Source: Mangrovicoccus sp. HB161399 (GTDB lineage Bacteria > Pseudomonadota > Alphaproteobacteria > Rhodobacterales > Rhodobacteraceae). From it: a DNA stretch of 62,892 bases. A program made the translations under genes and the position numbers. The stretch spans positions 1-62,892 of the forward strand of contig NZ_JAATVU010000033.1 in the NCBI RefSeq assembly GCF_013184745.1. Direction: 5' to 3'. Below are positions 3,991-59,000 of the stretch, piece after piece (the first letter of the stretch is position 1; each line of letters opens with the position of its first letter). The notes under the pieces were generated by a model that saw only the letters and a program-made list of their open reading frames with translations, was not told the origin of the DNA and did no database searches.

Positions 3991-4000
3991 CATCCCTGTC

Positions 4001-29311: not shown

Positions 29312-29520
29312 GTGCATTTCCGGCCGGAAATCGTTCGCAGGCATGCATTATGCGCATGGCAGGGCTGAAGGATTGTGGGTTGCCGCAGCGCAGCGTTAGC
29401 CCTAACTTGAGGACAACGACGTCACGAGTGACCGAGTAAATGGTTTTCCGCGGGTTCCTCCTCCTCCCTGAACCCGGGAAATCGGCGGCGGCCCTCTCCT
29501 CCTCCCCGGGTCGCCGCCCC

Positions 29521-32409: not shown

Positions 32410-32410
32410 G

Positions 32411-34174: not shown

Positions 34175-35290
34175 ATGACGCATTTTCCAGAACCCGCCAT
34201 CAGGCGGGGCGGCACCGGCTTGCCTTCGGCACCGGGCAACGGGGCGCTCGCCCCGCACAAGTGGCGCGACCTGATGGACCCGCTCAAGGCCTGCGCCTCC
34301 GCCCTGGACCTCAACGGCACCGACATCCATTTCCTAGACGTGCTGCTCAGCTTCGTGCCCGGCGACCGTCTCGCGACGGATGCCGGGGGCCGCTGCATCG
34401 TCTTTGCGGCCAACGCGACCATCGCCGCCCGGATGGGACGGTCCGGCGACAGCACCGTGAACCGCTGCATCCGCCGCGCCGAGGAGCGCGGGCTGGTCCG
34501 CAGGGTCCTGTCGCCCAACCGCAAGCGCTACTGCCGCACCGGCCGCAACGGCGAGACGCTGCGTGCCTATGGCATCGACCTGGCGCCTCTGGCGGAGAAC
34601 CACGCCCGGCTGATGGCCCTGCTCGCCCAGGTGGAGGAAGAGAACGCCCGCACCGACACGCTGCGACGGGACTGCGCCGAGTTGCTGGCCCAGCTGAAGA
34701 TGCGGGGCGGAATCTGCGACGGGACGCTGGTCGATTTCCGGCGCCGCCTCCGCCGCAAGCCCGCCATGGCTGCGCTCACGGACCTGCGGGCCGAGCTGGC
34801 AGAGTGCATCGCGACGACCTCCGGATCCGCGATTCCGGGCGACAGCGCCGACCGCAATGAGCAGCACATAGAACACCATACCCCAAATACCCTTGAGTCC
34901 CGCAAAGCAAAGGATGACGGCCTGCGCGAAGAGGACATCGAAAGGGCATTCCCGCTTCTCGCAAGCCTCTTGCAGGGCAGGGGCCATCAGTCCGACTTCA
35001 TCCACCGTCTCGATGCCGCCGCACGGATGCTTCCAGGCGCAAGCCGGGCATGGCAGAGAAGCTGCAGCAAGCTGGGTCCGGCATCCGCCTCCATTCTGCT
35101 CGGCGCCGTGCTTGAACGCCATGACAGTATCGCCAATCCCGGCGGCTATCTGCGGACGCTCACCGACCGGTGCGAAAGCGGCGAACTCGATCCCGGCCAG
35201 CTGGTCCGCACGAGCCTTGGCCGGAAGCGGCCCAGCAGGGCAGGGGGGATGGGAGCCCCGCGCGAAAGCCTCGCCTCCGAAACTGCATGA
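34175..35290 (+). CDS. repC: RepC-family replication initiator
   Basis: A 371-residue initiator of the RP-C family. The N-terminal winged-helix region (about 25-150) has HKWRDLMDPLKACASALDLN, DIHFLDVLLSFVPGDRL, IVFAANATIAARMGRSGDSTVNRCIRRAEERGLVRRVLSPNRKRY and AYGIDLAPL, as in RepC of repABC plasmids; the C-terminal domain (about 255-345) matches the RP-C C-terminal helical part. A linker of lower GC separates them (34850-34920), a possible origin site as oriV lies within repC in known replicons. The ATG at 34175 has no strong ribosome site, so 34133 is possible. Confidence 0.9.
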   Translation: MTHFPEPAIRRGGTGLPSAPGNGALAPHKWRDLMDPLKACASALDLNGTDIHFLDVLLSFVPGDRLATDAGGRCIVFAANATIAARMGRSGDSTVNRCIRRAEERGLVRRVLSPNRKRYCRTGRNGETLRAYGIDLAPLAENHARLMALLAQVEEENARTDTLRRDCAELLAQLKMRGGICDGTLVDFRRRLRRKPAMAALTDLRAELAECIATTSGSAIPGDSADRNEQHIEHHTPNTLESRKAKDDGLREEDIERAFPLLASLLQGRGHQSDFIHRLDAAARMLPGASRAWQRSCSKLGPASASILLGAVLERHDSIANPGGYLRTLTDRCESGELDPGQLVRTSLGRKRPSRAGGMGAPRESLASETA

Positions 35291-35422
35291 GCCGTCTTGC
35301 CCTTGGCCGCGGTCCCGGCGCAGAGTGCCGCCAGTGCCCGCGCATCCGCGGAGTTCCGAGTGGCGGAGCGTCGATCCCGCCGAAGGCAGTCTCCGGACTG
35401 TTCCGGACCCGGAGGTTCTGAC

Positions 35423-36405
<983 letters not shown>

Positions 36406-36409
<4 letters not shown>

Positions 36410-37785
36410 AGATATCGTTCCACGGAGCGGCCGGGGAGGTCACCGGATCCTGCCATCTGGTCGAATGCAACGGCCGCCGCATCCTGATCGACTGCGGCAT
36501 GTTCCAGGGCGGGCATGACCTTCACGAGGACAACGCGGCGGAGTTCGGCTTCGAGCCGCGCGACATCGACCTGGTGCTGCTCACCCATGCGCATCTGGAC
36601 CATTGCGGGCGGCTGCCGCTGCTGGTCAAGCGCGGCTTCAGCGGCGAGATCATCTCCACCGCGGCCACTGCGGAACTGGCGCGCCTGGTGATGCTGGACT
36701 CGGCGCATCTGCACGAGGAGGACGCGCGGCGGCACCACCGCCATGGCGAGCGCGGCGGCAACTACGAGCCGCTCTACGACACGATGGACGCGCTCGACGC
36801 GGTGGACATCTTCGGCCGCAAGGTCGGCTACCATCAGAGGATCAAGCTCTTCCCCGGGATTGCCGCGACCTATTTCGACGCCGGGCACATCCTCGGATCG
36901 GCCTCGATCCTGCTGGAGCTCGACGAGGACGGGCGCAAGCGGCGGGTGCTGTTCTCGGGCGATATCGGCCCCTGCGACCGGCCGCTGCTGAACCCGCCGG
37001 TGCCGCCGGGGGATGCCGACGTGGTGATCATGGAGTCGACCTATGGCGACCGCGACCACCGCTCGCTGGACAGCTCGGTCTCGGAATTCCTCGCCGCGAT
37101 CCACCGCGCCGACGAACATGGCGGGCGGGTGATCATCCCGACCTTCGCGATGGAACGCGCGCAGGAACTGCTGTGGTTCCTGCGCCAGGGCATGGAGGAC
37201 GGGCGGCTGCGCAGCTCGATGCGGGTCTACCTGGACTCGCCGATGGCGATCTCCGCCACGCGGATCTTCAGCCGCCACCCCGAGGCAATGCGCGCCGAGC
37301 TGGCCGGGATGATCCGCGACGGACAGGACCCGTTCCGCCTGCCCAAGCTGCATTTCGTCCATGAGGCGCGCGACTCGATGCTGCTGAACCGCGGCGACGC
37401 GCCGTCGATCATCATGGCCGGGTCCGGCATGTGCACCGGCGGCCGGGTCCGCCACCACCTGCGGCACAATCTCGGCAAGGCCGAGAGCAGCGTGATCTTC
37501 GTCGGCTATGCCGCGGCGGGCACGCTGGCGCGGATCATCATCGACGGCGCGCGGGAGGTGAAGCTCTTCGGCGAGCAGATCCCCGTCCGGGCACGGATCC
37601 ACACGATCAACGGCTTCTCCGCCCATGCCGGGGCAGGCGACCTGAAGCGCTGGCACGCGCGGACCGGGACGCCGGAGAGGACCTTTCTGGTGCATGGCGA
37701 GACCCGCGCCCTGGAGGCGCTGTGCCGCGCGCTCGGCCCGGAGCGCACCGAGATCCCGCAGATGCACCAGAGCTACGAACTGTGA
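36406..37785 (+). CDS. Metallo-beta-lactamase/beta-CASP RNA exonuclease-like protein
   Basis: A 459-residue nuclease-type protein. The metal site HxHxDH is THAHLDHCGRLP (H61, H63, D65, H66); further signs are DAGHILGSASI, LFSGDIG, MESTYGDRDH, the beta-CASP segment with PTFAMERAQELL, GSGMCTGGRVRHHL and the C-terminal NGFSAHAGAGDL (RMMBL). It resembles archaeal/bacterial CPSF-like RNA processing enzymes, so it probably degrades or processes RNA. It is translationally coupled to the LOG protein, a pairing that hints at linked nucleotide salvage, though that is inference. Confidence 0.9.
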
Positions 37786-38036
37786 GGCCGGACGGCCAGG
37801 ACAACCCGGAAATAGCCCGTCCGGCGGTGTCCGGACCGGGTCCGCTGCGGGGCGCGAGCTGGGGAAAACAGGTGGTAATTTAGCTGTCCAACCCTGTCAA
37901 TTCTTGAATTCCGACGTGGGAATTAATTTAACGGTGGGTAAATTCGGCGTGAGCCAGCGGAGTCCCGGGGGGGAGGCTGCCGGCCATCGAACCGGATTTG
38001 CGGCAGCACTTGCATTGTTTTTCCTGGGGGGGAGAA
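37786..38036. promoter_or_regulatory. Promoter region of the giant surface protein gene
   Basis: An AT-rich 250-bp gap. AATTCC (37907-37912) and GGAATT (37919-37924) form an inverted repeat about 115 bp before the giant gene. The gene itself has a strong GGGGGGGAG ribosome site. I see no clear -10/-35 pair. Confidence 0.35.
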
Positions 38037-41000
38037 ATGAATATTATTACGTCCGATATTAAGGTTAACACATTCATTGACGGCGACCAGAGCCAGCAGC
38101 GGATCCTGGCGCTGCCCTCCGGCGATCTCGTCGTGGTCTACACTTCGGCAGGCGCGGACGGCTCGGGCAACGGCATCTTCGCGCAGCGCTTCACCGCTGC
38201 GGGGCAGCGGCTGGGACAGGAAGTGCGCCTGAACCAGGTTGCCGCGGGCAGCCAGTCCGACCCCCAGATCGCGCTCGACGGCGACGGCAACATCGTGCTG
38301 GCCTATGCCGACGGCAATTCCCGGGACGGCTCGGGCAGCGGCATATTTCTCGCCCGGTTCTCCCCCAACCTGGTGCCGCTCGGTCCCGATACGCAGGTGA
38401 ACGACCTGACCTCGAACAACCAGAGCCAGCCGGCGCTGGCCGTGCTGTCGGACGGCGCGGTCATGGTGGCCTGGTACGACGACTGGGGCACCTACTACCA
38501 GGCGCCGACACCCTACCAAGGCTATTACGAAGTCCGCGCCAAGATCTACGAGCCGGACGGGGCGACCGTGCGGACGGGGGAATTCTCGCTCTCCGGGACC
38601 GTCGACAACCAGACCCAGAACGCGCCGGTGCTGGCGGCGCTGGGGGACGGCGCGGTGGCGGTCTGGCGCGGCTACGGCAGCGGCGACAGCGACGGCATCT
38701 TCGCGCGGATCCTCGATGCGGACGGCAACGAGACGGTCGCGCCCTTCCTGGTCAATGTTACCACCTCCGGCGGCCAGTACGAGCCCGAGGTCGCCGCGCT
38801 GTCGGACGGCCGCTTCGCCGTGCTGTGGTCGGGCAACCGCGACGGCGACAATGACGGGGTCGTGGCGCGGGTCTTCAATGCCGACGGCACCGCCGCTTCC
38901 GGAGAGATTGCGATCAATGCCGATACTTATTCGGCCGATCGCGGCCGGGCGATCGTCGCCGACGGCGCAGGCGGGTTCACCGTCGCCTGGCACGACCATT
39001 CCTACCAGAACGGCGAAAGCCCGGCGGCGAACTACACCTATGGCAGCTTCCTGCGTGCGGTCGCCCATGACGCCGGGACCGACAGCTATGCCGCGGGCGG
39101 GATCACCCAGATCAACGGCGTGACAGCGGGCGACGAGCAGAACCCCCGCCTGGCCTGGCTCGGCGGCGGCGTCATGGCCGCCGTGTTCCAGACCGCGGCG
39201 GGCGAGGACGGCAGCGGCAGCGGCGTCTACCTGCGGCTCTTCGGGCCCGAAGGCGCGATTGACGGGGCGGACCGCGCGCCGAAGCTGGAAGGCCTGCCCG
39301 CCACCATCAGCGTCGCCGAAAATGACGGCCCGCAGCTGATCGATCCGGGCATGGCCGTCGCGCTGTCGGATGCCGACAGCACGGATTTCGGCGGCGGGCG
39401 CCTGGTCTTCGGCCATCTTCTGCAGAGCGACGTGCAGACCTATCGCGGTCCGCTGGAAGGCCGCGACCAGCATGTGCTGGGCATCCTCGATGCAGGGACC
39501 GGCGCCGGCCAGATCGGCCGGGCCGGCGCGGACGTCACCTACGAGGGCACGGTGATCGGAACGGTCGTCTCGGACGGGCAGGGCGGGCGCGACCTGGCCG
39601 TGGCGCTCAATGCCGCCGCCGGCCTCGCTGCGGTCGAGGCGCTGATCGAGCACCTGACCTACGACAACGTCTCGGACAATCCAGCCGCCTCGACGCAGCT
39701 CTTAGTCTCGCTTGAGGAAGCCTCGGGCATCGCCTCGGCGGCGGTGCCGCTCTCCGTCGAGATCGCGGCGGAACCCGACCTGCTGCCCGAGCCGTCGCTG
39801 GTGCGGGTGGCCAACACCACCTTCCCTGGCAACCAGACCAATCCGTCCATCGCCGCGCTGTTCGAAGGGGCGGGGGGCACCGGGCGCGCGCTGGACGCGG
39901 GCGTGGCGCAGTCCGGCTATGTCATCGTCTGGACCGACGAGGGCGGCTCCGACGGATCGGGCCACGGCGTCTACGGCCAGCGCTATGCCGCGGATGGCGG
40001 GCGGATCGGGCCGGAATTCCTGGTCAACGAGGGCACGGCGTCGAACCAGTTCCAGCCCGAGGCGGCAGGGCTGGCCGATGGCGGCTTCGTCGTCGTGTGG
40101 TATTCCGACCGGACCGCCCCGGGGACGGAATACCGCGACGTGCTGATGCGGCGCTATTCCGCGGACGGCACGCCGGAGCCGGCGGTGAACCTGACCCAGG
40201 CCTATTTCGGCACCAACACGGAATCTGTCCCCCATGTCGCCGCGCTGGAGAACGGCGGCTGGGTCGTCACCTGGCAGTCGAGCCTGGGCGATGTCCATGC
40301 CCAGATCTTCGATGCGGCGGGCGCCTCCTCCGGCCTGTTCCAGGTCAACCAGGCGATGGCGGCGGACCAGACCCAAATCCGCGCGGCGCAGATGGAGGAC
40401 GGCGACATCGTCTTCGTCTACAGCGCCGGCACCTCCGGCGCCGAGGGCGACGGGTCGCAGACCGGCATCTATGCGCGGCGCTTCGCGGCGGACGGCACGC
40501 CCGATCCGGCGGGCGAATACCTGGTGAATTCCACGGCCGCCGACCGGCAGGAATACGGCCAGGTCGCGGCCCTGGCCACAGGGGGACATGTCGTCGTCTG
40601 GCATTCGCTGAACCAGGACGGCTCCGGCTGGGGCGTCTACGGCCAGATGTACGACGCGGCCGGTGCGGCCGTCGGGGCAGAGTTCATCGTCAACAGCTAC
40701 ACCGGCAGCAACCAGTACAGCTCGGTCGTCGCGGCGCTGGCGGGCGGCGGCTTCGTCGTCGCCTGGTATGACGACTGGACGAGCGGCGAGCAGTACCGCG
40801 ATGTCTTCGCGCAGGTCTACAATGCCGATGGCAGCCGCCGCGACGGCGATTTCAAGGTCAACCTGCAAAGCACCGGCTACCAGTCGGCGCCGGCGGTCAC
40901 GGCCTTTGCCGACGGCGGCTTCGCCATCGCCTGGCAGTCGAACGCTGGCGAGGACAGCGACGGCTACGGCATCCTGCACCGGGTCTACGGGTCCGACCAG

Positions 41001-44000
41001 TCGGGCGTGCTGCAATTCGAGGGCTGGGACCTGCGCGGCAGCATGGCCGAGGCGGACCTGAATGCAGGTTTCGTGGCGCTCGATGCCGACCGGGTGGCGA
41101 GCGTGGACCTTTCCGGCGGCGCCTCGCTCGACGGTGCGGTCCTGTCGGTGGACGGCACGATCCCGGCCGATGCGCGCTATCCGCTCTCGCCGCGCCTGCC
41201 GCAGGACGGGCCGGACCAGTTCGCCTTCGGCGTGATCTCCGAGGGCGACGGCACCGGGCAGCTCGGGCTTTCCGGCAGCGAGCTGCGCTTCGGCGGAACC
41301 GCGATCGGCACCGTCTCGCAATCGGGCAGCAGGCTGGAGATCGCCTTCAACGCTGCGGCGGACCAGGCCGCGCTGGATGCCGTCCTGGCGGCGCTGGCCG
41401 TCGCGAACGCCTCCGGCGATCCGGCGGCCGCGCTCGACGTGCGGGTGGGGCTGGAATTCGCCGACGGCACGGCGGTGGACGGGCTGAGCCAGCGGATCTC
41501 GGTGCTGCGCGAGGATGACGTGGCGCTGGAGCGCCTGTCGGACGACGCGGCCGTGCCCCTCCAGACGGCGGGCGACCAGACAAGGCCCCAGGTGGCGATG
41601 CTCGCGGACGGCGGCTGGGTGACGGTCTGGCAGGACGCCGCCCATGACGGCAGCGGCATGGCCGTCTTCGCGCAGCGCTACACCGCCGGCGGGGCGGAGC
41701 TCGGCCCGGTGATCGAGGTCAACGACGCGCCCGCAGGGGACCAGTCGCTGCCCGACGTGGCGGCGCTGTCGACGGGCGGCTTCGCGGTGGTCTGGCAGGA
41801 TGGCGGCCCGGGCGACGGCGATGGCAGCCGGATCGCGATGCAGGTCTTCGACAGCGCCTCGCAGCCCCTCGGCGCGTCGCAGACGGTCAATGCCGCGGCA
41901 GCAGGGAACCAGACCGCCCCGGCCATCGCGGCGACGGAAGACGGCTTTGCCGTCATCTGGCGCTCGGAAGGCCAGGACGGCAGCTCGGGCGGGATCTATG
42001 CGCGGCGCTTCAACGTCGCGGGCGGCGGTCTCGATGCCGCCGACATCCCGGTCAACACCACTGCCACGGCTGGCGACCAGACCGAGCCCGCCATCGCCAT
42101 GCGCGCGGGCGGCGGCTTCGGCGCGGCCTTCCGCGACGCCGCGGCGAACGAGATCGTGCTGCAGCTCCATGACGGGACCGGGAGCCAGATCGCCCGCGCC
42201 GCGATGTCGGCGGGCGGCACGGTCAGCGACCCGTCGGTCGCGCAGCTGGCCGACGGCAGCTGGGCCGTCGCCTGGACCGGCAGCAGCGACGGCTCGAATG
42301 CGGGCGTCTACGCGCAGATGTTCGACGCCGCGGGCACCGCGCAGGGCGATGCCTTCCTGGCGGCCGACCAGATCTACGACACCCAGTACCAGCCCGAGAT
42401 CGCGGCGCTGGCCGATGGCGGCTTCGCCATCGCCTATTACGAGGCCGACAGCGTCACCAACCGAGACGCGGTCTACATCTACCGCGATGCCGTGGTGCAG
42501 CTTTTCGGCGCAGATGGCGGCCGGATCGACGGCGCGCAGAAGCTGAACCTGCTTTCGACCTCGGTCACCCAGAGCCAGCCTGCGCTTGCGGCCCGGCCGC
42601 TCTCGGAGGGCGGCGGCTTCGTCGCGGCCTGGGTTGCCTCGAGTTCCGCGGGCGAGGGCGACGGCTCCGGCCTTGCGGTCATGCAGGCCGTGTTCGGCAC
42701 GCCGGACAGCTTCACCGTCGACAGCCGGCCCGAGGTGGCGGGCTTCGCCGCGGGCGCGCTGGAGGAAGCCGCGGTCAATGCCGGGCTGGCCGCGATCGAC
42801 GCGGACGGACTGGTCGGCGTGGCGGTCCCGGACGGCGCGGGTTTCGACGGCGGGCAGCTGGTTTTCTCGCTCGACCTGCCCAATCTCGACCTCAACCGCG
42901 AACCGCTGTCGCAGCACAGCGTCGGCGTGATCGACCAGGGCGGCGGTCCGGGCCAGATCGGCGTCGCGGGCAGCACCGTCAGCTACGGGGGCATCGCGAT
43001 CGGCGCGCTCTCGGGAAACCAGCACTCGGTCACCGTGACCTTCAATGCCGCGGCGGGGGCCGAAGCCGTTGAAGCGCTGTTCAAGGCGCTCGGCTATGCC
43101 AACCCGTCCGACGCGGTCTTCCCCGCGATCCCCTTCACCGCCAGCCTGACCGACAGCGCCGGGCGGACCTGGCAGGAACGCGGCAGCTTCACGGTCGCGC
43201 CCGAAGCCGATGCCGAAGGGCCGGTGCCGGGCAGCACCCAGGTCAACGGCCTTGCGGCGGACGACCAGTACGATGCGGCCATGGCACGCCTCGCCGATGG
43301 CGGCTGGGTCACGGTCTATTCCGACGATTCCACCGGCGGCAGCACCGAGGACATCCGTGCCGCGATCTACAATGCCGACGGCTCGCTGCGCGCGGGGGAT
43401 ATCCTGGTCAACGATGCCGCGGCAGGCCGCCAGTTCGAGCCCGCGGTCACCGCCTGGGGCAGCGGCTTCGCCGTGGCCTGGCGCAGCGACGAGGTCACTG
43501 CAGGTGACGGCAGCCTCTCGCATGTGATGATGGCGGGCTTCGACGCTTCGGGCGCCAAGACGGTCGCCGAGTTCCAGCTCAACGACTATGCCTCCAACTA
43601 CCAGTGGTCGCCCGCGCTGGCGACGCTGGCGGACGGCAATGTCGCCGCGGCCTGGACCTCCCGCGGCCAGGACGGCTCGAATGACGGGATCTACGGCAAG
43701 ATCCTGGCGCTGTCGGCCGGCGGCACGCCGGTCACGGAGGTGATGGCCGAGACCCGGCTGAGCGGCACCTCTTCGGGCTACCAGAACTATCCGTCGCTCT
43801 CGGCGACGGCGGATGGCGGCTTCGTGCTGGGCTACCAGAGCCAGAACGTCGACGGATCGGGCTATGCCGCGATGGCGCGCGGCTTCGATGCCGCCGGGGT
43901 CGAGGCCTTCGCCGAGGTCCGGCTGAATGCCACGGGCGGCAACGACCAGAGCGGCGTGCAGGTGGCGGCGCTGGCCGGACCGGGCGGGACGCATGGGGGC

Positions 44001-47000
44001 TTCGCCGCGGTCTGGCAGTCCCAGGCCGGCGACGACGGCAGCGGCTGGTCGATCGTGGCGCGGCGCTACGATCCGGCGGGCAATCCGCTGGACGCGCCCT
44101 TCGTGGTCAACAGCAACACCGAGGGCACCCAGCAGCAGCCCGCCGTCGCGGCGCTGGCGGGGGGCGGCTTCGTCATCGGCTGGTACGACGACGACTACCA
44201 GGGCAGCTACGCGCAGTACCGCACGGTCGACATCCAGCGCTACGGCGCGGACGGGCTGCGCATCGACGGCGAGGAAACCGTCAGCCTGCCGACCGGCACA
44301 AGCGGGGACACCGCGCAGCGCCCGGCGCTGCTGGCGCTCGACGGCGATGATTTCGTGGTCGCCTGGGACAGCAACTACGGCGGCACCGAAGAGGGGCCGG
44401 ACGTGTCCGGCTATGCCGTGCACCAGCGGATCTTCGGCGACCCGGCGGATTACGCGGTGGCGGTGACCAGCCCGCCCGCGCCGCAGGTGACCCAGTTCGC
44501 GGGCCAGCATTTCACCACCGCCGCCGTGAAGGCCGCGCCGCAGCTTGTCGATGCGGCCATCGCCTTCGATCCCGGCGGGGCGGCGGATTTCGGCGGCTGG
44601 GTGCTGTCGGCCGCGCTGCCCGCCTCGCTGGCGGGCGAGACGCTTTCTGTGGCCCACACCGGCACCGGGGCAGGGCAGATCTCTGTCTCGGGCAGCAGCA
44701 TCCGCTACGAGGGCACGGAGATCGGCCAGCTGGCCGCGGTGCCGGGCGAGGCGGGCTACCGGCCCTTCGTGGTGCGGCATTTCAATGTCGGGCAGCCGAT
44801 CTCGGTGCTGGCGGATGTCGATTTCGGCGCCGCGCCGGACCATGTCGAGGCGGTTGCCTCGGTCAGCTATTCGGGCGCCAGCTATCCCGGCGGACCCGGC
44901 GACTATTTCGCCGTCGCGGCGGACGGCTCGATCTTCGTCCAGACTGCCGGGGACTACACCTTCTACCTGCGCAGCGACGACGGATCGCAGCTGACCGTCG
45001 ACGGCACGCAGGTCATCGACAATGACGGGGTCCACGGTTCTGTCGAGGTCTCCGCGACGGTGTCGCTGAGCGCGGGCTTCCACGATATCGGCGTGACCTA
45101 TTTCGAGAATGCCGGCAGCAGTGGCCTGTCGCTGGAATGGGCCGGTCCGGATTCCGGCGGCGCGCGGGTGTCCAGTTCGGCGCCGCCCGCGGCCGCGCCG
45201 GCAGAGGGGGTCGAGATCGCGCTGAACGGCAATGCCGACGCGGCGGCCGTCGAGGCGCTGATCGAGGCGCTGTCCTACGGGCTCGATCCGGCGGCGGCGG
45301 GCGATTTCGGCGCCCGGCTGGTGTCGCTGGGGCTGTCGGCGCCTGGGGGCGTCGAGGTTGCCGGGGCCGCCACGCTGATCCAGGTGGACGACGTGCTGTC
45401 GCCGCAGCTGCGCATCGACGAGGTTGCCACCGGGATCGCGCTGAGCGACGCGGAAGCGGCGGACACGGTCTTCCTCGCGCCGGATGCCGTGTTCTCCGCG
45501 GTGACTTCGGCAGGGCTGCCGGGCGGCGCGGTGACGGTGTCCTACCGCTTCGCGCCCGATGACCTGGCCAACCGGCCCTATGGCTACCGCGACCGCATCG
45601 CGGTCAATGACGAGGGCGGCGGCGCCGGGCAGATCGGCATCGGCGGCGACGGCACGACCCTCACCTTCGGCGGCGCGGCCTTCGCCACGATCGCCGCCGA
45701 CGGCGCCTTCGGCAGCGATTTCCGCATCGAGCTGGGCGCGGGGGCGACCGAGGCGGCGGTGCAGGCGCTCCTGCGCAACCTCACCTGGTCGAGCGACGGC
45801 GATACCGAGGGCGGCCGCCCCGACCTGACGATCCAGGTTTCCGACGGCGGCGGCGTCACCGGATCGACCGGACGGATCGCCGTCTCCATCGACGCCGTGG
45901 CCGAGGCGCCGGTGCCTGCCGGGCCGGAGTTCCACATCAATGCCAATGCCGCGGGCGAGCAGAGCGGCGCCCGGCTGGCGCAGCTGTCGAACGGCAACCT
46001 GGTCGCGGTCTGGAATTCCTATGGCCAGGACAATCCCGGCAGCAATGACTGGGGCGTCTTCGGGCGGCTGTTCGATCCCGACGGCAACGCGATTTCCGGC
46101 GAGTTCCAGATCAACGAATTCCGCCAGGGCAGCGCGACCGTGCAGGATGTCACCGCGCTGGAGGACGGCCGCTTCGCCGTGGGCTACCTGCACGACAACC
46201 TGCAGCTCAGGACCTTCGCCGCGGACGGCGCCGCCGAGGGCGGCCAGGTCCAGGTCGAGCAGCATGCCAACTCCACGCGCGACCAGCTGGAACTGACGTC
46301 GCTGCAGGATGGCGGGGTCTTCGCCGCCTGGCGCAGCTGGACTGCCGACGGCAGCGGCTACGGCATCGCGGGACGGGTCTTCGACGGTGCGGGCCAGCCT
46401 GCGGGCGGCGAGTTCGGCATCAATGCCGAGACCGAGAGCCACCAGGAGCAGCCCCATCTTGCGACGCTCGCCGGCGGCAACGTGGTGGCGGTCTGGTTCA
46501 GCCATACCAGCGGCACCGCGGCCGGCGACGGCGACGGCTATTCGATCCAGATGCGCATGTTCGCGCCCGACGGGACCGACCTGACCCCGACCGAGACGAC
46601 CGTGAACAGCTTCGCGGCCGGCAACCAGCACGAACCCTCGGTGGCGGTGCTGGCGGATGGCAACATCGTCGTCGTCTGGCGGTCCGATGCCGGCAATGGC
46701 AGCGGCTCCGGCATCCATGCCGCGCTCCTGCAGCCCGACGGCACGGTCGTGGCGGAGGAATTCCTGGTCAACGACTTCGACTATTCCACCGAATACGCGC
46801 CGGTCGTCACCGCGCTTTCGGGCGGCGGCTTCGTCGTCGGCTGGAACTCCAACTACCAGACCGACAGCAATTACGACGTCATCCTAAAGACCTATGCCGC
46901 CGATGGCAGCGCCACCTCGGACGAGTTCCGCGCCCATGACGGCGCCGGCAGCCAGCAGTACCTTTGGGACATCGTGGCGCTCGGCAATGACGCCTTCGCG

Positions 47001-50000
47001 GTCAGCTGGCGCGAGGAGGGCAGTGCCAACCCGGCCGGCGACGGCGCCAACGACGCCACCGGGTTCAGGGTGTTCGGCGACCCGACCGGCGCGGGCCTGT
47101 CCGCAGATCCTCTGGTTGCAGGCGTGGCGGACGCGGCCTTCGGCGAGGAAGAGGTCAATGCCGGACCGCAGGCGCTGTTCGGCGCGCTCGATCTGGCCGA
47201 TCCCGACAGCGCCATGTTCGACGGCGGCATGCTGGTCGTTTCGGTGGTTGAGGCGGTCGGCAACCTGGAGGGACTCGGCCCGCAGGATGACGGGCGGCAG
47301 GACAGCTTCTCGGTCCTCGCGCGCGGCGGCATCTCGGTCTCCGGGCCCCAAGTGTTCTTCGGCGCCACGGCGATCGGCACGATCCTCGGCGACGGCCAGG
47401 ACGGCGCAGACCTCCGCATCGCGCTGGGGGCCGGGGCGGACCGGGCCGCGGTCGAGGCGCTGATCGAGGCGGTCGGCTATGCCAACGGCTCGGACGATCC
47501 GGCCGGGCAGCGGCTGGCCGAGCTGATCCTCAATGACGGGGCGGGCGGCTCCACCGGGCCGCTGCCCTTCTCGATCTCGGTGTCGCCCGCAACCGACAGC
47601 GGCCTGCAGGCCGCCGGGCCGGAACAGCGGGTCAACGCCTTCACCGCCGGAGAGCAGCACGAGGCGCATGTCGCCGCGCTCGCCGGCGGCGGGACGGTGG
47701 TGACCTGGCGCTCGGTCTCGCAGGACACGCCCGACGGCGCCTTCGGCGTCTATGCGCAGCGCTACGACGCGGCGGGCGCCAAGGTCGGCGGCGAGTTCCT
47801 GGTCAACACCCTGGCCGGGGCCAGCCAGTACAATCCGATGGCGGCCGGGCTCGACAATGGCGGCTTCGTCATCGCCTGGCGCGACGACAACGCGGCGTCG
47901 GACGGCTCGGCCAGCTCGGTGCAGGCGCAGATCTACGGCTCCGACGGGCTGGCCTCGGGCCCTGCCTTCACGGTGAATGCCGAGACCTCGGACTACCAGC
48001 TGCACCCGGCGGTCGCGCAGATCCCCGGCGGCTTCTCGGTGGCCTGGGCGAGCCGCTACCAGGACGGCAGCGGCTACGGCACCTACATGGCGAGCTTCGC
48101 CAATGACGGCACCGCAATCTCGCCCGAGCAGCGGGTGAGCCAGGATGCCGACAGCGACCAGTACCTGCCGCGGATCGCGGGATTCGCCGATGGCGGCACG
48201 GTGGTCGCCTGGGCCTCGGCGGCGACGGCGGCAGGGCAGGGCGACGGCTCGGGCTGGAGCGTCTGGGCGCGGGTCTATGCGCCGGTGGACGGGGTCTCCG
48301 GCTCGGTGCCCGAAACCGTCCAGATCGCGGCGAACGTGACGGTCGCGGGCACGCAGACCCGGCCCGACGTGGCGACCTTCTCCGACGGCCGCTTCGTCGT
48401 GGTCTGGGAGGACCAGTCGGCGAATGACGGCAGCAGCTACGGCGTCTTCGCGCGGATCTTCGCGCGCGACGGCAGCCCGGCCAGCGAGGAGTTCCGCGTC
48501 AACGGCGTGACCTCGGGCCAGCAATCCGACCCGAAGGTCGCGGTGCTGGAGGACGGCACCTTCGCGGTGATCTGGCACGACGCGTCGGCTCCGGAACCCG
48601 GCGGCAACGGCCAGTCGATCCAGGGCCAGCTCTATGCCGGCGACGGCAGCCGGATCGACGGGCCCTTCCTGGTCAACGAGGCCCCGAACTACACGCAAAA
48701 CGGGCCGGAAATCGTCGCCCTTCCCGGCGGCGGCTTCCGAGCGGTCTGGTCATCGAGCGGCCAGGACGGCAGCGATTACGGCGTCTATGCCCGCGATTTC
48801 ATGCCGGGCGGTGCTGCCGCGCTGTCCATGGCGCCGGTGCTGACCGGCGTGGCGGACGTCGCCTTCGGGGAAGCGGAGGTCAATGCCGGGCTGGTGCTGC
48901 TGGCTCCGGCGGTCTCGCTGTCGGATGCCGACACCGCGGTCTTCGCGGGCGGCGAGCTGCGGCTGGAGCGGCTGACCGGCAATGCCCATGTCGATGCCTA
49001 TGCCGCGCCGGACGACCAGAGCCAGGACGTGCTGGGCATCGTGCCGGGCGGAGAGATCGCGGTCTCGGGCGATGCGGTGCTGTTCGGCGGGCTGCAGATC
49101 GGCACCGTTTCGACCAGCGAGGACGGACAGGCGGGTCGGCCGCTTTCGGTCGCGCTGAACGGCAATGCCACCCGAGCGGGCGTGGAGGCGCTGATCGAGG
49201 CGCTCGGCTACGCCAATTCCAGCGACGATCCGCTGGCCAGCCGCGTGCTCGGCCTGACGGTCAGCGACGGCGCCGGCGGGGTGATGCCCACGGTCAACCT
49301 GGCCGTGACGGTGGCGCCCGGGGACGACCTCGCGCCGTTCGCCGATCCGGAGATGCTGGCCAACAGCTTCACGCCGAACGATCAGCGCCTGCCGGATGTC
49401 GCGGCCCTGCGCATGGCGGAGGGCGATCCGGCCACCGGCTATGTCGTGGTCTGGCGCTCCCTCCAGCAGGACAATCCGGGCGAGAATGCCCATGGCATCT
49501 TCGGCCAGCGCTACGGCGCCGACGGGGTGCCGCTGGGCACCGAGTTCCAGGTCAACACCACGATTCCCGGCAGCCAGAACGAACCGCAGGTGGCAGGCTT
49601 GGCGGGCGGCGGCTTCGCCGTGGTCTGGACCGACCTGAACGGGCTCGACGGTTCGGGCGACGGGATCTTCGTTCAGCTCTACGGCGCCGACGGCAGCGCA
49701 ACCGGCGGCGAGACGCGGGTCAACGGCACCACCTCGGGCGCGCAGGACCAGCCGCAGATCGCGCGTCTCGAGGACGGCAGTCTCGTCGTGGTCTGGAGCG
49801 GCATCGACCCTGTGACCGGCAGCCCCCGCATCTACGGCCAGCAGATCGAGGCCGACGGCAGCTTCCGCGGTCCCGAGCGGATGCTGTCGAGCGAAGCCAC
49901 CGGCACCGCGTCGCACCGGCTTCCGGACGTCAGCGCCACCGCGGGCGGCGGCTTCGCGCTGGTCTACCAGTCGCAGGCTCCGGCCGGGGCGGAGACCGCC

Positions 50001-53000
50001 GACGCGACCGACGGGTCCTGGGGCGTCTTCCTGCAGCGCTTCGACAGCACCGGCACCGAGCTGGGCGCGGGTCCGGCGCAGGTCAACCAGGTCGCGACCG
50101 GCGCGCAGGACGATCCCGCGATCGCCGCGCTGGCTGACGGGCGCCTGGTCGCCACCTGGGTTTCGCAGGGCGAGGACGGGTCGAACGAAGGCGTCTATGC
50201 GCGCATCCTCGGCGCCTCGGGCACGCCCGAGGGCGATGCCTTCCGGGTCAACGACTACACGGCGGGCCAGCAGCTCGACCCGGACGTGACCGCGCTCGGT
50301 GACGGCAGCTTCGTCATCGCCTGGCGCTCCGGTTCGGGCGGCGACGGCTGGGACGTCTGGGCGCAGCATTACGCGGCGGACGGATCGCGGACCGACGGCG
50401 CGAAGCGGCTGCATGACGGCACCTCGTCGACCCAGCTCGACGTGGCGCTGGCCGCGCTGGACGGCGATGCCTATGTGGCCGCCTTCGCCTCCTACGTGAA
50501 CGGCACGGATTACGACATCTATGCCCGGGTGATCGGCGGCAGCGCCGCGAGCCAGGACGATCCGCTGCTGGAGGGCCTGCCCTCCGCGCTGGCCTTCGAC
50601 GAGTCGCTTGTGAACACCGCGCCGCAGCTGCTGGACATCGACGGCGCGGCGGCGGTCTCCGACACCGACAGCGCCGATTTCGGCGGCGGGCTGCTGACCG
50701 TGGTCTCGGTCGACCTGGTCTCGGCCTACCAGTTCCAGATCAATGCGCCCGACAACGGCGCGCAGGACCAGTTCGGGCTGGCGGCCCGCGGCGGGGTCGC
50801 GGTCTCGGGCGGCGACGTCTCCGTCGGCGGCACGGTCATCGGCCAGATCGAGAGTCCCGGCACCGGCGGCCAGCCGCTGGAGATCCGCTTCAACGCGATG
50901 GCGGATGCCCAGGCGGTGGAGAAGGTGGTCGAGGCGCTGACCTACCGCAACATCTCCGACGATCCGATCGGCACCCGCACGGTGCGGGTCTCGCTGACCG
51001 ACGGGGACGGCGGCATGGCCGATCCGGTGCTGATCGAGGTGACGGTGAACCCGACGCCCGACGGCGCGGCGCCGGTCCTGGGCGAACGGCAGGCCAACAC
51101 CTTCGCGTCGAACAGCCAGTACGAGCCGGAAATGGCAGTGCTGGAGGACGGCTCCTTCGTCATGGCCTGGCATTCCTACACCCAGGACGGCTCGGGCTGG
51201 GGGATCTACGGCCAGCGCTTCTCGGCCGAGGGCGAGAGGATCGGCGGCGAGTTCCACGTGTCCGAGGGCCAGACCACGGCCGACCAGGTCTATCCGCGCC
51301 TCGCCGCGCTCGGCGGCATGAGCTTCGGCGTGGTCTGGGAGGACCGCTCGGGCACCACCGGCGGGCCGCAGGACGACGTGTTCCTGCGCCGCTTCGAGGT
51401 GGTGACCGTCGATCCGGGCCTGGAGACCGAGGCGGAAGTGGTGCAGCCCATCGGCGGCGCGCCGGTGCAGGTCAACACGGTCAATTCCGGCAACGAGGAC
51501 ACGCCGGAGATCGTCGCGCTCGGCGGCGGCCGCTTCGCAGTCGTCTGGAACGCCAATTCCGACGTCGGCGACGGCAGCGGCTACGCGGTCGAGGCGCAGC
51601 TCTACAACGCGGACGGCACCAAGGATGGCGGCCAGTTCCGCGTCAGCGGACCGGTGGCGAACGACCAGCGCAGCTGGAGCGCCGCGGCGCTCAGGGACGG
51701 GGATTTCGCGCCCACCGGCGAATTCGTCGTGGCCTTCGCCTCTGCCGACGTCGACGGCGGCGACGTGTACCTCCAGCGCGTGGCGGGCGACGGCACGCTG
51801 CTCGACCAGGCCGGCAATCCGGCGGCGGGTCCGGCCTCGTTCCGGGCGAACACGGAAACCGCCTCGACCCAGAACGGCGCGGCGGTCACCGGGCTGAAGG
51901 GCGGCGGCTTCGTCGTCACCTGGCAGTCGCAGGCACAGGACGGCAGCGGCACCGGCATCTATGCCCAGCTCTACGGGGCGAACGGCGCGCCTGCAGGGGC
52001 GGAGTTCCGCGTCAACGACCAGTTGGCCAACTCGCAGGACCATGCCTTCGCCGCGGCGCTGGATACCGGCGGATTCGTCATCGCCTGGCGCGACCAGCAT
52101 CCCTATGCCGAGACCGGCAGCAGCTACGACTATTCCGGCATCTTCGCCCAGCAATACGACGCCACGGGCGCGCGGCTGGACGGCAATTTCCTGGTGAATT
52201 CCGAGACCCGCGGCAACCAGATGCAGCCCGCGATCGCGGCGCTTGCCGATGGCGGCTTCGCCGTTGCCTGGGCCTCCGAGGTCGGCGACGGCAATCCCGG
52301 CGACGGCAGCAGCTGGGGCGTGTTCTACCAGGTCTACGGCAATGCCGCCCCGGTGGCGGGCGCGGCCTTCTCCGGGCCCGAGGACCAGGCCCAGGTGCTG
52401 GGGCTCGACGCCTTCGACGCGGGCTTCGACGATCCCGACGGACAGGCGTTGGCCGAGATCCGCATCGCCTCGCTGCCGAGCTTCGGCGCGCTGACGCTGG
52501 GCGGGGCTGCCGTCGCGGCCGATCAGGTGATCGCCCGCAGCCAGCTCGATGCCGGGCTGCTGGTCTACACGCCGCAGGCGGATTTCGACGGCGAGGACGC
52601 CTTCCTGTTCTTCGCGTCCGACGGGATCAGCTATTCCGGCCAGGCCACGGCGACCATCGACCTGACCCCGGTCAACGATGCGCCGGGGATGGCGGCGCTC
52701 AACGACACGACGGTGACCGAAGGAACCGCGGTGCGGCCGGGCATCGTGCTCGCCGATCCCGACAGCGACCTCTACAGCTATACGGTCGACTGGGGCGACG
52801 GCGCGCCGGTGACGAGCTACAGCTCGTCCTCGAAGACGCCCTCCCTGCCGTCCCATGCCTACGCGGCCGAAGGCAGCTACACCGTCTCGGTGACCGTGAA
52901 CGACAATGCCGGCCAGCCGAATTCGCAGGAAACCGACAGCTACGAGGTGACCGTCGAGAACGCGGCGCCGGTGCCGCGGCGGGACACCCTGACCGTTTCC

Positions 53001-56000
53001 GAGGACGGCACCGCGACGGCCAACCTGTTCCTGAACAACGGCTACGGCATCGACAGCGACCCGGGCGGGGACGCCTTCACGGTCACGGCGGTGAACGGGG
53101 TGGCGGCCAATGTCGGGCAGGCCGTGACGATTGGCGCGGGGCTGCAGATCACGGTGCTGGCAGACGGCTCGATCGCGATGGATGCTGCGGGCGCCTACGA
53201 GTCGCTGGCCGACTGGCAGAGCGCGACCGAGAGCTTCGCCTACACGGTGACGGATTCCGATGGCGCCAGCGCCTCGGTGACCTCTTATGTCCATGTCGAC
53301 GGCCAGAACGACCGGCCGGAGCCCAGGGACGACGCGATCGAGGTGCAGGCCGACAGCCAGGCCAGCGGCAATGTCATCGCCGGCGTGCCGGATGCCGGCG
53401 GGGCCGACACCGATCCCGATGACGGCAACACGCTCTCGGTGATCTCGGTCGAGGGCCAGACGGTCAATGCCGCGACCGGCTCGCTGATCACGCTCGTGTC
53501 GGGCGCCACGGTCTTCATGACCGCGGACGGCGCCTTCACCTACGACACCAACGGCGCCTTCGCCGGCGACGGCAGCGACAGCTTCGGCTATGTCGTCTCC
53601 GACGGGCGCGGCGGCACGGCGGGAGCGACGGTGACCGTCAATGTCGGCGGCACCAACGCGGCGCCGGTGGCGCAGGACGACGCGTCGACGACCGCGGCCT
53701 CGGCGCTGCTTTCCGGGAACCTCTTCCTCGACAACGGTTCGGGACCTGACAGCGATCCCGACGGCGACCCGATCGCGGTGACGCGGGTCGAGGGCCTGGC
53801 TGCCAATGTCGGACAGTGGACCGCGCTGGCTTCGGGCGCGCGGGTCCGGGTGCAATCGAACGGCGACTACGAGTTCGACCCGAATGGCGCCTTCGGCGCG
53901 CTGCCGGGCGGCGGCAGCGAGGATGTCAGCTTCGGATACCGGATCGAGGACGGCCAGGGCGGCTTCGACGAGGCGGTGGCGACTGTCACCGTGACCGGCG
54001 AGAACGGCGCCCCGGCGGCGCGGCGCAACGACTATGCGGGGAACGAGGATGCCGCGATCTCGGGCAACGTGATCCTCGACGATACCGGACAGGGCCGAGA
54101 CAGCGATCCCGATGACGGCGACACGATCCGGGTGGCGCGGGTCAACGGCTCGGCCGCGGCAGTGGGCGGCACGATCCTGCTGGCGTCGGGCGCTTCGCTG
54201 ACCGTCAATGCCGACGGCACCTTCTCCTACGACCCGACCGAGGGCTGGAACGCGCTGCGTCTCGGCACCGCCCGCACCGACAGCTTCGCCTACCGGATCG
54301 AGGACGCGGCGGGGCTCGGCTCCACCGCGACCGTGTACCTTCAGGTCTCCGGGCGCAACGACGCGCCCGACGCGCGGGACGACGCGTTCGGCGTTTCGGA
54401 AACCGGCAGTTTCTCGGGCTCAGTGCTGGCCGACAACGGCCGCGGCGCGGACAGCGATCCCGACACGATCGGCGGGGCGGACACGCTGACCGTCGTCGCG
54501 GTGGACGGCAATGCCGCGCTGGTGGGCGTGCCCTACGACCTGCCAGGCGGCGGCCGGATCACGCTGACGGCGGCCGGAGCGCTGAGCTTCGACACCGACG
54601 GCGATTTCGACCTGCCCGCGAATTCCACCCGGGACGTGACCTTCGCCTATACGCTGCGCGACAGCGGCGGGCTGGAGAGCACCGCGACCGTGACCGTCCG
54701 GGTCACCGGCAACGGCGCGCCGCCGGTGGCCACCGACGACACGGTGGCGACGGACGAGGATGCGGCGGTCCAGGCGAACCTGATCCAGGGGCTCGGCGGC
54801 GCGACGGCGGACAGCGATCCGGACGGCGATCCGCTGCACGTCTCGGCGGTGAACGGCGAAGCGGCGGATGTCGGCGTGCAGGTCACGCTGCCCTCCGGCG
54901 CGCTGCTGACCGTGCTGACCGGCGGGGCGATGTTCTATGACCCGAACGGCGCCTTCGAGGACCTGGGCGAGGGAGAAAGCGGAAGCGACAGCTTCGAATA
55001 CGAGGTCTCGGACGGGGCGGGCGGCACGGACACGGCCACCGTCACGATGCAGATTGCAGGCGTCAACGACGCGCCCGTGGCACGCGACGACCAGGTGCAG
55101 ACCGGCGAGGACACGGTCCTGTCCGGCGACGTGACCGCCGATAACGGCAACGGCACGGACAGCGATGCCGAGGGCCATGCACTGGCCGTGACCAAGGTCA
55201 ACGGGCTGGATTACACGCCGGGTACGCCCGTGCTTCTGGGCTCCGGCGCGCTGCTGACGATGAACGCGGACGGCACTTTCGCCTATGATCCCAACGGCGC
55301 CTTCGAGACGCTGAAATCGACCGAAAGCGCATCGGACCTGTTCTCCTACACCATCGAGGACCCCTCCGGCGCGGCCTCGACCGCGATCCTGCGGATCACC
55401 GTGCAGGGCGCGAATGACGCCCCGGCGCCCGTGGATGATACCGGCGCGGCGTTCGAGAACACGCTGGCCACCGGCATTGTCCTGGACAACGACACCGACC
55501 CGGATGGCGATGCGCTGACCGTCTCGGCCGTCGGCGGGGAGGCGGTCGGCAGCCCGGTCGCGCTGGCCTCCGGCGCGCTGGTCACGGTCAATGCTGACGG
55601 CAGCTACAGCTACGATCCGAACGGCGCCTTCGACGGGCTGGCCCCGGGCGAGGAGGCGGCCGACAGCTTCTCCTACACCGCCTGGGACGGCGCGGCGGGC
55701 GAGGATGCCACGGTGGTCATCACCATCACCGGCAAGGGCGCCGACCCGGTCGCCACCGACAATGCCTATGCCACGGACGAGGAAAGCGCCGTCGCGGGCA
55801 ATGTCCTGACCGACGATACCGGCGCGGGCACCGACAGCGACAGCGACGGCGAACTGCTGCAGGTCACCCATGTCGAGGGCCGGCCGATCGCCGACGGGCC
55901 GGTGACGCTGGTCTCCGGCGCGGTGGTGACGATGAACCCGGACGGGACCTTCACCTACGACCCTTCGGGGGCGCTGGACGGCATCCGCGCGGGCGGCACG

Positions 56001-59000
56001 AGGCTCGACACGTTCAACTACACTGTCTCCGATCCCTTCGGCGGCACCGACACAGCGGGCGTCTTCGTCACGGTCTCGGGCGTCAATGACGATCCCGCGC
56101 CGCGCGACGACACGTTCGAGACCTTCGAGAACGCGGTGCTGGAGGGTGCCGTGCTGGCCAACGACACCGATATCGACGGCGACGCGCTGGAGGTCACCGA
56201 AATCGGCGGCGCGGCCTTCACGCCCGGGACTGCGATCGAGCTGCCCTCGGGCGCGCTGCTGACGATGAACGCTGACGGGACGTTCTCCTACGATCCGAAC
56301 GGGGCCTTCGACGCGCTGGTCTTCGGCCAGACCGCGACGGACAGCTTCGCCTACACGGTCGATGACGGCAATGGCGGCACGGCGGAGGCAACGGCGGCGA
56401 TCACGGTCGAGAGCACCGACGGCGCGCCGAACCTGGTGGCGGCGGCGGGCGCCTTCGCGGGCGGGCGGACCTCGCAATGGCTGTCGGTCAGCTACCGCGT
56501 CGACAACGAGGGCGGCGCCACGGCGGCCGGGAAGAACTGGGTCGACCGGCTGTACCTGTCCGCCGACCAGGTGCTGGACGAGGACGACATCTTCCTGCGC
56601 GAGCTGAGCTTCTCGGGCCAGCTCGACACCGGCGAATGGTACGAGAAGACCGCGACGGTGAAGATGCCGGGCGTGCCGGGCGACTACTACCTGCTGGTCG
56701 ATGTCGATGCGAAGAACGCGCAGATCGAGACCGACGAGACCGACAATGTGGGCGCCAGCCGCGATCCGGGCGCGCTGCTGCCGGCCTACACCTCGACGCT
56801 GACCGCGGTGTCCATCGCCGATCCGTCGCTCGACGTGACAGAGGCGGTGACCGGGCAGGGCTTCCTCTTGCGCGGGCAGGCCGTGGATTACGTCACCAAC
56901 GAGGGCGAGCCCTATGCGGTGGTGAAGATCGTCGCGGAAATCGGCGGCTTCGCCCGCACGGCGACGGTGCTGACCGATGTCGACGGCTACTGGTCCGCGA
57001 CCTTCGCGACCCTGTCGGGCGAGGCGGGGCTGCTGAGCCTGACCGCGCGCCATCCCGACGATCCGACCGAGGCGCCGATCCCCGACGACACGGTCGCGGT
57101 CTACGGCATGGGCTTCGACCGGGCCGACAATTTCAGGACGCTGGAGGTCATCGAGGGGACCAGCGGCACCTTCTCCTTCACGCTGGAGAATTTCGGCGAG
57201 TTCGACCTCACCGGGCTGGAGGCCACGCTGCTGGACCTTCCGGCCGCCTGGAGCGGCGCGGTCTCGCTGGACAGCGCCGATCTGGCAGGCGATGGCAGCA
57301 TCGAGCTGGAGCTGACCGTCTCCGTGCCGGAGGGCACGCCGTTGGCCTTCGACGACATGCAGGTGCAGGTGACCTCGGACGAGGGCGCCTCGGCGCTCCT
57401 GAACGTGCGCATCGACCCGGTGGTGTCGCTCGCCGACATCGAGATCGTCCAGTCCTCGGTCCGCGCCTTCGCGATCCGCGAGGAGCAGACCTTCGTCAGC
57501 TTCGAGGTGACCAACAGCGGCGCGACCGTGTCGAACCCGATCAGCGTCGACATCCCGCCGCTCGGCTGGATCGACTTCGTCTCGCCCGAGATCCTCGATC
57601 CGCTGATGCCGGGCGAGACCGCCACGGTGACGCTGGTGCTGTCGCCGGATGCCGGGGAACCGCTGGGCCGCTACGCCGGCTCCATCGCGGTGGCCGAGGA
57701 TGGCGGCGACATCGACACGGTGGGCTTCGAGTTCTTCACGGTCTCCGACGCGCTCGGAAACCTCGAGATCACCCTGACCGACGAGCTCTACTATTTCGCC
57801 CAGGGCGAGCCGCTGGTCGATGACGGCAAGGTCATCGTCCGCAACGCCTCCACCGGCGAGATCGTGTTCCAGAGCGACGATGTCGACGGGCAGGTGACCG
57901 TCGAGGACATCCCCGAGGGCACCTACACGGTCCGCGTGCAGGCCAAGGACCACGACATCTTCCAGGCCAACGTGAAGGTGGAGCCGGGCCAGACCAACGA
58001 GGTCGAGGCCTTCATGTCCCGCCAGACGGTCAAGTACTATTGGTCGGTCGAGGAAGTCGAGATCGAGGACCGCTACGAGGTCATCATCGAGGCGGAGTTC
58101 GAGACCGACGTGCCGGTCCCGGTCGTGGTGCTGGACCCGCCGGTGCTGGATTTCGCCCCGCTCGACGATATCGGCGACACCCAGACCTTCGAGCTGACGG
58201 TGACCAACCACGGGCTGATCGGCGTCAACGACCTGGAGCTGCTGCTGGGCGAGCATCCGTTCTTCGAGATCACCACGCCCTTCGACACGCTCGATTTCCT
58301 CGACGCGAAATCCTCGATCACCATCCCGGTCAAGGTCACGCGGATCGCCGATTTCGAGACCGACGCGGCGCCCCTGGGGGCGGAGTCCTTCTCGCTCGCA
58401 TCGGCCGCGGCGGCGACCGCCGCGACGGTGCCCTGCTCCTGGAGCGGGACGCTGACCTATGAATTCCCCTGCGGCGACAACGACGTGAACAAGTCGATCT
58501 CGATCAGCGCGTCGAACGTGCCGGGCAATTGCGGCCAGGGCGGATCGGGCGGCTTCGGCTTCGGCGGGGGCGGCGGCGGCGGTGGGGGCGGCGGCTTCGG
58601 GGGCGGCGGCGGGGGCGGCGGCTCCAGCTACAGTTCCTCGGTGCCGATGATTTCCGAGCAGAAGCTCTGCGACCTGCTGAAGGTGATCTTCGACTGCGAG
58701 GACCTGTTCCCGCAGGGCCCGATCATGGGGCCGATCATGGACGGGCTGGAATATCTCGCCACCGGCAATGCCGAGGGCTGGGTGGAGACCGTCCAGAACG
58801 TCTTCAACTTCTTCGACGACCCGATCGGGACGCTGGAGGACCAGATCGCCGGGCAGAATCCGTTCTCGGGCTTCATGGGCGCCTCGGCGATGCTGATGGT
58901 GTCGGGCACCAAGGAGACCTCGGATCCCGCGCCGCTGTCCCAAACCGCCGGCACCAAGGAAGTCTCTGCGGAGCCGGTCGGCGACACGGATCTGCAAGGC

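Follow-up and report, generated by a model that had tools for sequence, protein, structure and literature searches.

Eight predicted beta-propellers in a giant protein of Mangrovicoccus sp. HB161399

Analysis of a 62,892-nucleotide stretch of DNA from Mangrovicoccus sp. HB161399, which corresponds to an entire contig (NZ_JAATVU010000033.1, positions 1-62892) and is referred to here as the window, revealed a gene for a giant protein whose residues 1-4790 are predicted to form eight seven-bladed beta-propellers in a row, a reading that is supported by structural models, fold searches and repeat counts. The gene lies on the plus strand as a single open frame spanning from 37998 to the window end, where the end of the contig cuts it. 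The likely start is the ATG at 38037, with GGGGGGGAG at 38026-38034 just 5' of it, so that the N-terminal part of the gene is contained in positions 38037-62892. The encoded part runs to at least 8,285 residues, with the C-terminus lying beyond the contig end. Such an arrangement is otherwise best known from receptors of animals, for example megalin, and by analogy this string of propellers suggests a molecule that may bind at many sites.

A repeat model iterated from the giant protein identified 56 copies of a unit of about 55 residues (units scoring above 5 bits; a 57th row at -3.1 bits was discarded). These copies are arranged in eight blocks, and each of the eight contains seven like, beta-rich units, the number per domain by which a seven-bladed propeller is recognised. 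The units occupy residues 29-4791 of the frame from 37998 (window positions 38082-52370), with blocks starting at residues 29, 611, 1191, 1754, 2652, 3217, 3794 and 4371. Unit E-values ranged from 3e-6 to 5e-24, values that flatter the model because it was fitted to these very units. A rescan with two models, of which one had been refined on other loci, again gave seven units in all eight blocks; the weakest unit, blade 6 of block 1 (13.7 bits), was at first missed by the other-loci model under a stricter threshold. The eight blocks of exactly seven units claimed in the initial annotation were therefore borne out by both counts. Unit starts inside a block are 45-71 residues apart, and the unit consensus (56 units, from the window and the related protein L072) is G.Q..P.VA.L..GGFVV.W.S...DGS..GV.AQ...A.G...G.EF.VN. 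The blocks are 30-39% identical to block 2, and 16 columns are invariant over all eight, comprising Gly, Trp, Leu, Val, Phe, Gln and one Asp. At the DNA level, the copies encoding the propellers are too diverged for Tandem Repeats Finder, which reported one short array only in the window, at 55084.

All blocks are encoded on the plus strand and carry seven units: block 1 (38046-39287), in which the closing strand comes first; block 2 (39777-41012), whose structure was modelled; block 3 (41511-42707), with a weakly conserved closing strand; block 4 (43209-44447); block 5 (45906-47102); blocks 6 (47598-48827) and 7 (49326-50567), which were modelled together; and block 8 (51060-52367).

Predicted fold and closure of the rings

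The AlphaFold2 model of block 2, built with the eight window blocks as alignment, was all-beta, with a predicted local distance difference test (pLDDT) value of 80.9 and a predicted template modelling score (pTM) of 0.87. Comparison of this model with solved structures in Foldseek resulted in 441 chains at E <= 0.001, and nearly all of the best 50 of these 441 were propellers, by name or by known fold. The best match was CylK (E 5e-12, template modelling score (TM) 0.71 of the query), followed within the same best 50 by L-rhamnose-glucuronate lyase, PLL/PHL lectins, glycoside hydrolase family 93 (GH93) enzymes and sialidases. The prediction for a single block agrees with the propellers proposed in the initial annotation. 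A second model, covering block 6, the spacer and block 7 (990 residues, 8 rows), reached a pLDDT of 79.4 and a pTM of 0.56. It consisted of two nearly all-beta blocks of about 400 residues each, joined by a spacer that contained strands and short helices. CylK was again the first match (E 1.7e-11), and the human LRP2 (megalin) ectodomain ranked 4-7.

The order of strands is also in agreement with closed rings. In WD40 proteins, the ring is closed by the first strand, which completes the last blade. A strand resembling the last one of the unit (EF.VN) was found by eye ahead of unit 1 in all eight blocks, with none after unit 7, and a similar closing-type strand precedes each of the six blocks of L072; this order is the one that a WD40-like closed ring would give.

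Several observations on the models and the strands weigh against this reading. In block 3 the closing strand is weak, and in block 2 it is non-canonical. Each model rested on an alignment of eight sequences, three of the eight propellers were modelled, and the fold was judged from model scores and fold searches. The placing of the block 6 and block 7 domains is not fixed by the two-block model because of its pTM, and the LRP2 matches of this model were local (TM 0.13-0.18 of the query, root-mean-square deviation about 29-34). Profile searches of solved structures gave no clear sequence relative: the best hit of the block and blade profiles was an endo-arabinase (E 0.003), CylK was not retrieved in three such searches up to E 10, and a sequence link to CylK or to other solved propellers was rejected. 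Sialidases and GH93 enzymes have six blades; since families with a different number of blades are among the fold matches, the number seven is taken from the sequence count.

Unit number in related proteins

The block profile matched 24 of 101 genomes at E <= 0.001, and a 19-row profile matched at least 31 of 398 genomes of the phylum at E <= 1e-20, the genome under study being included in both figures; the second is a lower bound, at most four candidates per genome having been scored. Units were counted in 54 loci (L038-L070, L075-L094 and L072); L031-L037, L071, L073 and L074, all from the M. ximenensis genome, were excluded. To be counted, a frame had to have at least 200 codons and an open reading frame (ORF) at least four first-pass hits, and 52 of the 54 loci retained a counted ORF. 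The resulting 59 other ORFs contained 79 arrays of at least three units, 72 of them with at least five detected units. In 53 of these 72 arrays the unit count was seven or a whole multiple of it, although arrays from one protein are not independent of each other. Exactly seven units were present in 49 arrays, six of them by a rule that counts a gap of at least 95 residues as concealing one unit, and there was one array each of 14 (by the same rule), 21, 35 and 49 units. In the last three, linker lengths showed a period of seven: the mean linker difference at lag 7 was 1.1, 0.0 and 0.2 residues for the arrays of 49, 35 and 21 units, vs 9.5-10.3, 2.9-4.9 and 2.4-3.1 residues at lags 1-6, respectively.

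On the contrary side, three arrays have eight units (L070, L087 and L094). The initial annotation had named homologues with counts other than seven per block as a refutation, and to the letter these are such homologues; each, however, is a single array with a closing-type strand ahead, and they could be eight-bladed rings. A further 16 arrays also count otherwise: 13 have six units, and one each has 5, 10 and 11, the latter two in L043 and L059. By eye, a weak seventh unit was apparent in seven of the 13 sixes, namely two of L075 (blocks 2 and 5), four of L076 (four of its five blocks) and that of L069; the machine count of six was kept in the tally. Two further sixes (L050_12401 and L085) come from frames truncated where the locus or contig ends, and the remaining ones are L050_366, L050_7367, L060 and L082. 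The period-seven linkers, moreover, are in part a product of near-identical copying.

Two or more propellers, up to eight, were apparent in 11 of the 59 ORFs: eight in L075, seven in L078, six in L072 (from a Rhodocyclaceae metagenome-assembled genome), five in L076 and L083, three in L040, and two each in L045, L077, L080, L082 and L086. The numbers for L075 and L076 include units recognised by eye, and one of the two L082 arrays counts six. The L075 ORF meets a stretch of N near its end, so its length is a lower bound. Three of the loci showed particular arrangements. The 49 units of L078 (G397) can be read as seven propellers that abut without spacer domains, followed by repeats that by eye are cadherin-like. 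In L050 (G040), six consecutive propeller-type ORFs lie within 14 kb, each carrying a single array of six or seven units. L084 (G188, C1) contains one open frame of 26,117 codons, of which the 19.9 kb examined hold one seven-unit propeller array.

Altogether, the models of block 2 and of blocks 6 and 7, the fold searches, the closing-strand order and the 53 of 72 arrays favour the eight seven-bladed propellers that had been proposed from the repeats of the window.

Copying of whole propellers

Units at the same position in different window blocks were more alike than units at different positions (33.7% vs 30.9% identity), a difference reached in 0 of 2000 shuffles. Same-position units being more alike, the window blocks therefore arose through whole-block copying. 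A 51-block tree (midpoint-rooted, without support values) mostly grouped the blocks by protein, so the strings seem to have grown separately; the exceptions were window block 5, placed apart from the other window blocks, and L083, placed beside L075. Blocks 2 and 3 of L072 are identical. The five seven-unit propellers in a row of L083 (G210) are nearly identical, an arrangement indicative of a very recent amplification. These identical or near-identical copies indicate that whole rings were copied recently.

Such copying has a consequence for the argument from the number seven, which had been taken as the sign of a closed ring. Since blocks were copied whole, the seven within one protein is partly inherited, and to that extent it tells against the argument. 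The recurrence of seven across separate proteins is better evidence for a closed ring than seven inside one protein. Growth of the string would have proceeded by copying propellers whole, because a ring cannot freely lose or gain a single blade.

Spacers, stalk and neighbouring genes

The spacer between blocks 6 and 7 (48828-49325, plus strand) has about 166 residues, with predicted strands and short helices, and similar ordinary spacers separate blocks 1-2, 2-3, 3-4, 5-6 and 7-8. With the block bounds chosen here, six of the seven spacers measure 164-168 residues, vs 487 for the long spacer after block 4 (44445-45908, plus strand). By eye, the latter contains two copies of the ordinary spacer, one of them interrupted by a PA14 domain (44853-45167, plus strand; PF07691, E 6.9e-15, 55.6 bits vs a cut-off of 24). 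PA14 is often a glycan-binding domain. A long spacer stands mid-string in three proteins, after block 4 of eight in the window protein and in L075, and after block 3 of six in L072, possibly by coincidence.

The Pfam scan covered all eight blocks and all seven spacers, and only two families exceeded their cut-offs, PA14 (long spacer) and CopC (block 8). The CopC match (25.9 bits vs a cut-off of 23.3) was treated as chance, since no stretch passes singly. None of the six ordinary spacers had a Pfam match up to E 1, and the Big_9 and cadherin-like domains of the giant protein were recognised by Pfam only in the stretch scanned from 52338 onward. The description of the spacers as cadherin-like, made in the initial annotation, is therefore not supported for these six.

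The propeller blocks are followed by a stalk (52368-57998, plus strand) composed of Big_9 (12 stretches) and Cadherin_4 repeats, with PKD, CARDB and NPCBM-associated domains in Pfam and tandem-95 repeats in NCBIfam. The C-terminal part within the window (57999-62891, plus strand) adds three further Big_9 stretches, and the M. ximenensis orthologue is 89% identical to it over 1,167 residues. The protein thus has a long stalk of immunoglobulin (Ig)- and cadherin-like repeats (Big_9, 12 + 3 stretches), as in LapA/Bap-type giant adhesins, and it also matches the NCBIfam model of the BapA/Bap/LapF adhesin domain (241.6 bits vs a cut-off of 180).

Just 5' of the giant gene, an ORF on the plus strand (35500-37785) encodes a Metallo-beta-lactamase/beta-CASP protein in which about 300 residues precede the recognised domain. 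Further upstream, on the minus strand (19974-23057), the window contains the gene for a second large surface-type protein, with SdrD_B, Cadherin and Big_9 domains.

The M. ximenensis orthologue and export

Seven M. ximenensis loci (L031-L037) that could have been taken for solo propellers were rejected as such, since they tile one orthologue over six contigs with 75-87% identity. They cover window residues 62-630, 629-1066, 1396-2437, 2440-3141, 3172-3738, 3734-4019 and 4011-4803. With L106 added, the pieces of the orthologous giant gene number at least eight, on seven contigs, and most of their ends meet or almost meet. The likeliest explanation for this scattering is an assembly artefact, a misassembly in the public genome.

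The giant protein is probably exported from the cell, judging from matches at the sequence level. The C-terminal piece of the orthologue ends in a marginal match to a serralysin-type C-terminus (PF08548, 22.4 bits vs a cut-off of 20.7), to which the NCBIfam model Zn_serralysin gave E 3e-6, far below its cut-off. The genome under study encodes a PrtD-type transporter (659 bits vs a cut-off of 510), whereas 14 control genomes match only below the cut-off. ABC and HlyD genes lie 3' of L075, and OEP and HlyD genes lie 3' of L076.

Other data speak against export by this route or against retention at the cell. The PF08548 match is marginal, and it belongs to the C-terminus of the orthologue, not to that of the window protein. 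No export gene was found in the ten ORFs scanned upstream (window 19974-37785), and no transporter in the seven ORFs downstream of the orthologue C-terminal piece, where LptF/LptG are encoded, or in the three neighbouring ORFs of L078 and L040 that were scanned. Propeller 1 has its closing strand at most ten residues from the start Met, which is why the protein may be released rather than held by the cell; a retention module of the LapA/Bap type, for which no dedicated model search was made, would seem to have no space ahead of this propeller. Release into the matrix is as open as display at the surface.

Proposed function and alternatives

With moderate confidence, we favour an exported multivalent binding protein, in which eight propellers on a stalk would mediate adhesion via many binding sites. 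According to this model, eight seven-bladed propellers would be strung on short spacer domains over residues 1-4790, each ring being closed by the pairing of the first strand of the block with blade 7, and the string would precede the stalk of cadherin-like and Big_9 domains. A C-terminal serralysin-type signal, as judged from the orthologue, would direct type I secretion, with the C-terminus leaving first, the propellers last, and folding taking place outside the cell. The N-terminal propellers might then act as multivalent binding heads on a stalk of Ig-like domains, the many sites adding up to tight adhesion. The target would probably be glycans of the matrix, of a host or of another surface, and glycans appear the likeliest ligand, given that lectins and carbohydrate enzymes are among the nearest folds.

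A variant of this model with the same fold, possible but somewhat doubtful, is that the protein is a released matrix component, exported by type I secretion without a retention domain and cross-linking biofilm polysaccharide. It would be consistent with the serralysin-type C-terminus of the orthologue and with the position of the propeller 1 closing strand within ten residues of the start, a feature shared by L072 and L075 when counted from the nearest Met; on the other hand, the C-terminus of the window protein lies beyond the contig, and another attachment is possible.

It is unlikely that the propellers are stiff spacers or scaffolds, with binding or anchoring located elsewhere, for instance in PA14 or in the stalk. 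The mid-string PA14 and the regular spacing of the blocks are in line with such a role, and the eight propellers of megalin are described as spacers (PMC9255719). However, most propellers are separated by one type of spacer, of about 166 residues, without a recognised ligand-binding domain, and blocks that are 30-39% identical to block 2 are more diverged than pure spacers require.

Still less probable is an enzymatic role, in which the propellers would be polysaccharide lyases, glycosidases or CylK-like alkylating enzymes acting in series on a polymer. The closest folds do include CylK, L-rhamnose-glucuronate lyase, GH93 enzymes and sialidases, and weak sequence likeness was detected to a blade of an endo-arabinase (E 0.003), to propellers of glycoside hydrolases (E 0.11 at best) and, for block 7, to Glyco_hydro_43 (E 0.13). 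Nevertheless, the 16 invariant columns of the blocks contain no evident conserved catalytic pair, and the catalytic site of CylK is located at the interface with its N-terminal calcium domain (PMC8916777), a domain that is absent from the giant protein.

Finally, an open or superhelical array, whose sevens only reflect the copying of seven-unit blocks, can appeal to the fact that blocks were copied whole, so that the sevens within the protein are not eight independent events, and it is very improbable in view of the pTM of 0.87, the long matches to closed propellers, the order of first and last strands, the occurrence of seven in many separate proteins and the arrays of 14, 21, 35 and 49 units.

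Comparison with known systems

All NCBIfam matches to the scanned blocks were below cut-off. One of them, NF053835 (PDIAV motif-containing lipoprotein), is a partial match to the propeller units from a family of lipoproteins with 458 positions, and its cut-off of 90 was reached neither by L072 (47.6 bits, E 1.6e-12) nor by window block 1 (20.8 bits, E 2.2e-4). The DUF5122 beta-propeller repeat (PF17164) was rejected as a parent, with 14.4 and 13.5 bits vs a cut-off of 27 (E 0.045 and 0.09), and it had no match in the genome under study at E <= 0.001. Separately, L108 (G092, C26), a frame of 9,509 codons in which DUF5122 propeller repeats occur, is possibly another propeller-bearing giant.

The PLL/PHL lectins of Photorhabdus, whose propellers are among the best fold matches of block 2, are seven-bladed and bind glycans multivalently. 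They differ from the giant protein in being single, small proteins of about 340-350 residues, with 10-14% identity in fold alignments. CylK, the best structural match of both models, shares the seven blades, and its C-terminal domain (PDB 7fh6, 7roo) is described as a propeller with a calcium site at every blade junction (PMC8916777). CylK is, however, an enzyme with a single propeller plus a calcium-binding domain and shows 12-14% identity in the fold alignments. Sequence similarity to the CylK family was absent up to E 10, and the giant gene begins with a propeller, without an N-terminal calcium partner.

In overall arrangement, the giant protein resembles BapP of Pseudoalteromonas tunicata, a large calcium-dependent adhesin for which a 2025 report describes a propeller predicted at the N-terminus, Calx-beta and Big_9 domains after it, and probable type I secretion, and terms the propeller unique among adhesins (PMC12153261). 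In both proteins, the predicted propeller region is N-terminal, ahead of Big_9 domains. BapP, in contrast, has a single propeller, predicted to be five-bladed, together with a Sec signal peptide and about 1,600 residues.

Should the predicted fold hold, the parts list of giant bacterial adhesins gains a propeller family that lacks a Pfam model, and several Pseudomonadota have proteins with repeats of whole propellers, the copies being identical or near-identical in two of them (L072 and L083). These proteins would then provide a natural test of how closed repeats grow, with rings copied whole, a blade number that is mostly fixed and a ring number that varies from one to eight.

The initial annotation knew of no earlier description of eight propellers in a string. 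No description of a bacterial one was found among the literature matches listed, with most subscription papers and bioRxiv outside the search, so that the claim holds to this extent for bacteria; in animals such a string is known, eight propellers being strung in the giant extracellular protein megalin/LRP2 (PMC9255719). Megalin and the giant protein have the string of eight in common. They differ in that megalin is a membrane receptor of animals and carries EGF and LDL-A repeats, the fold match being local and no sequence relation being claimed. The YWTD propellers of megalin have six blades. What is described here is a known fold in a sequence family without a Pfam model and in an unusual architecture. 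We tentatively propose that it may represent an unnamed class of exported bacterial propeller-string proteins, with at most eight rings among those analysed. Gene amplification in this class would act on the propeller as a whole, and each ring could diverge towards a different ligand, making the class a bacterial counterpart of multi-ligand receptors of the megalin type that may have arisen separately in several lineages.

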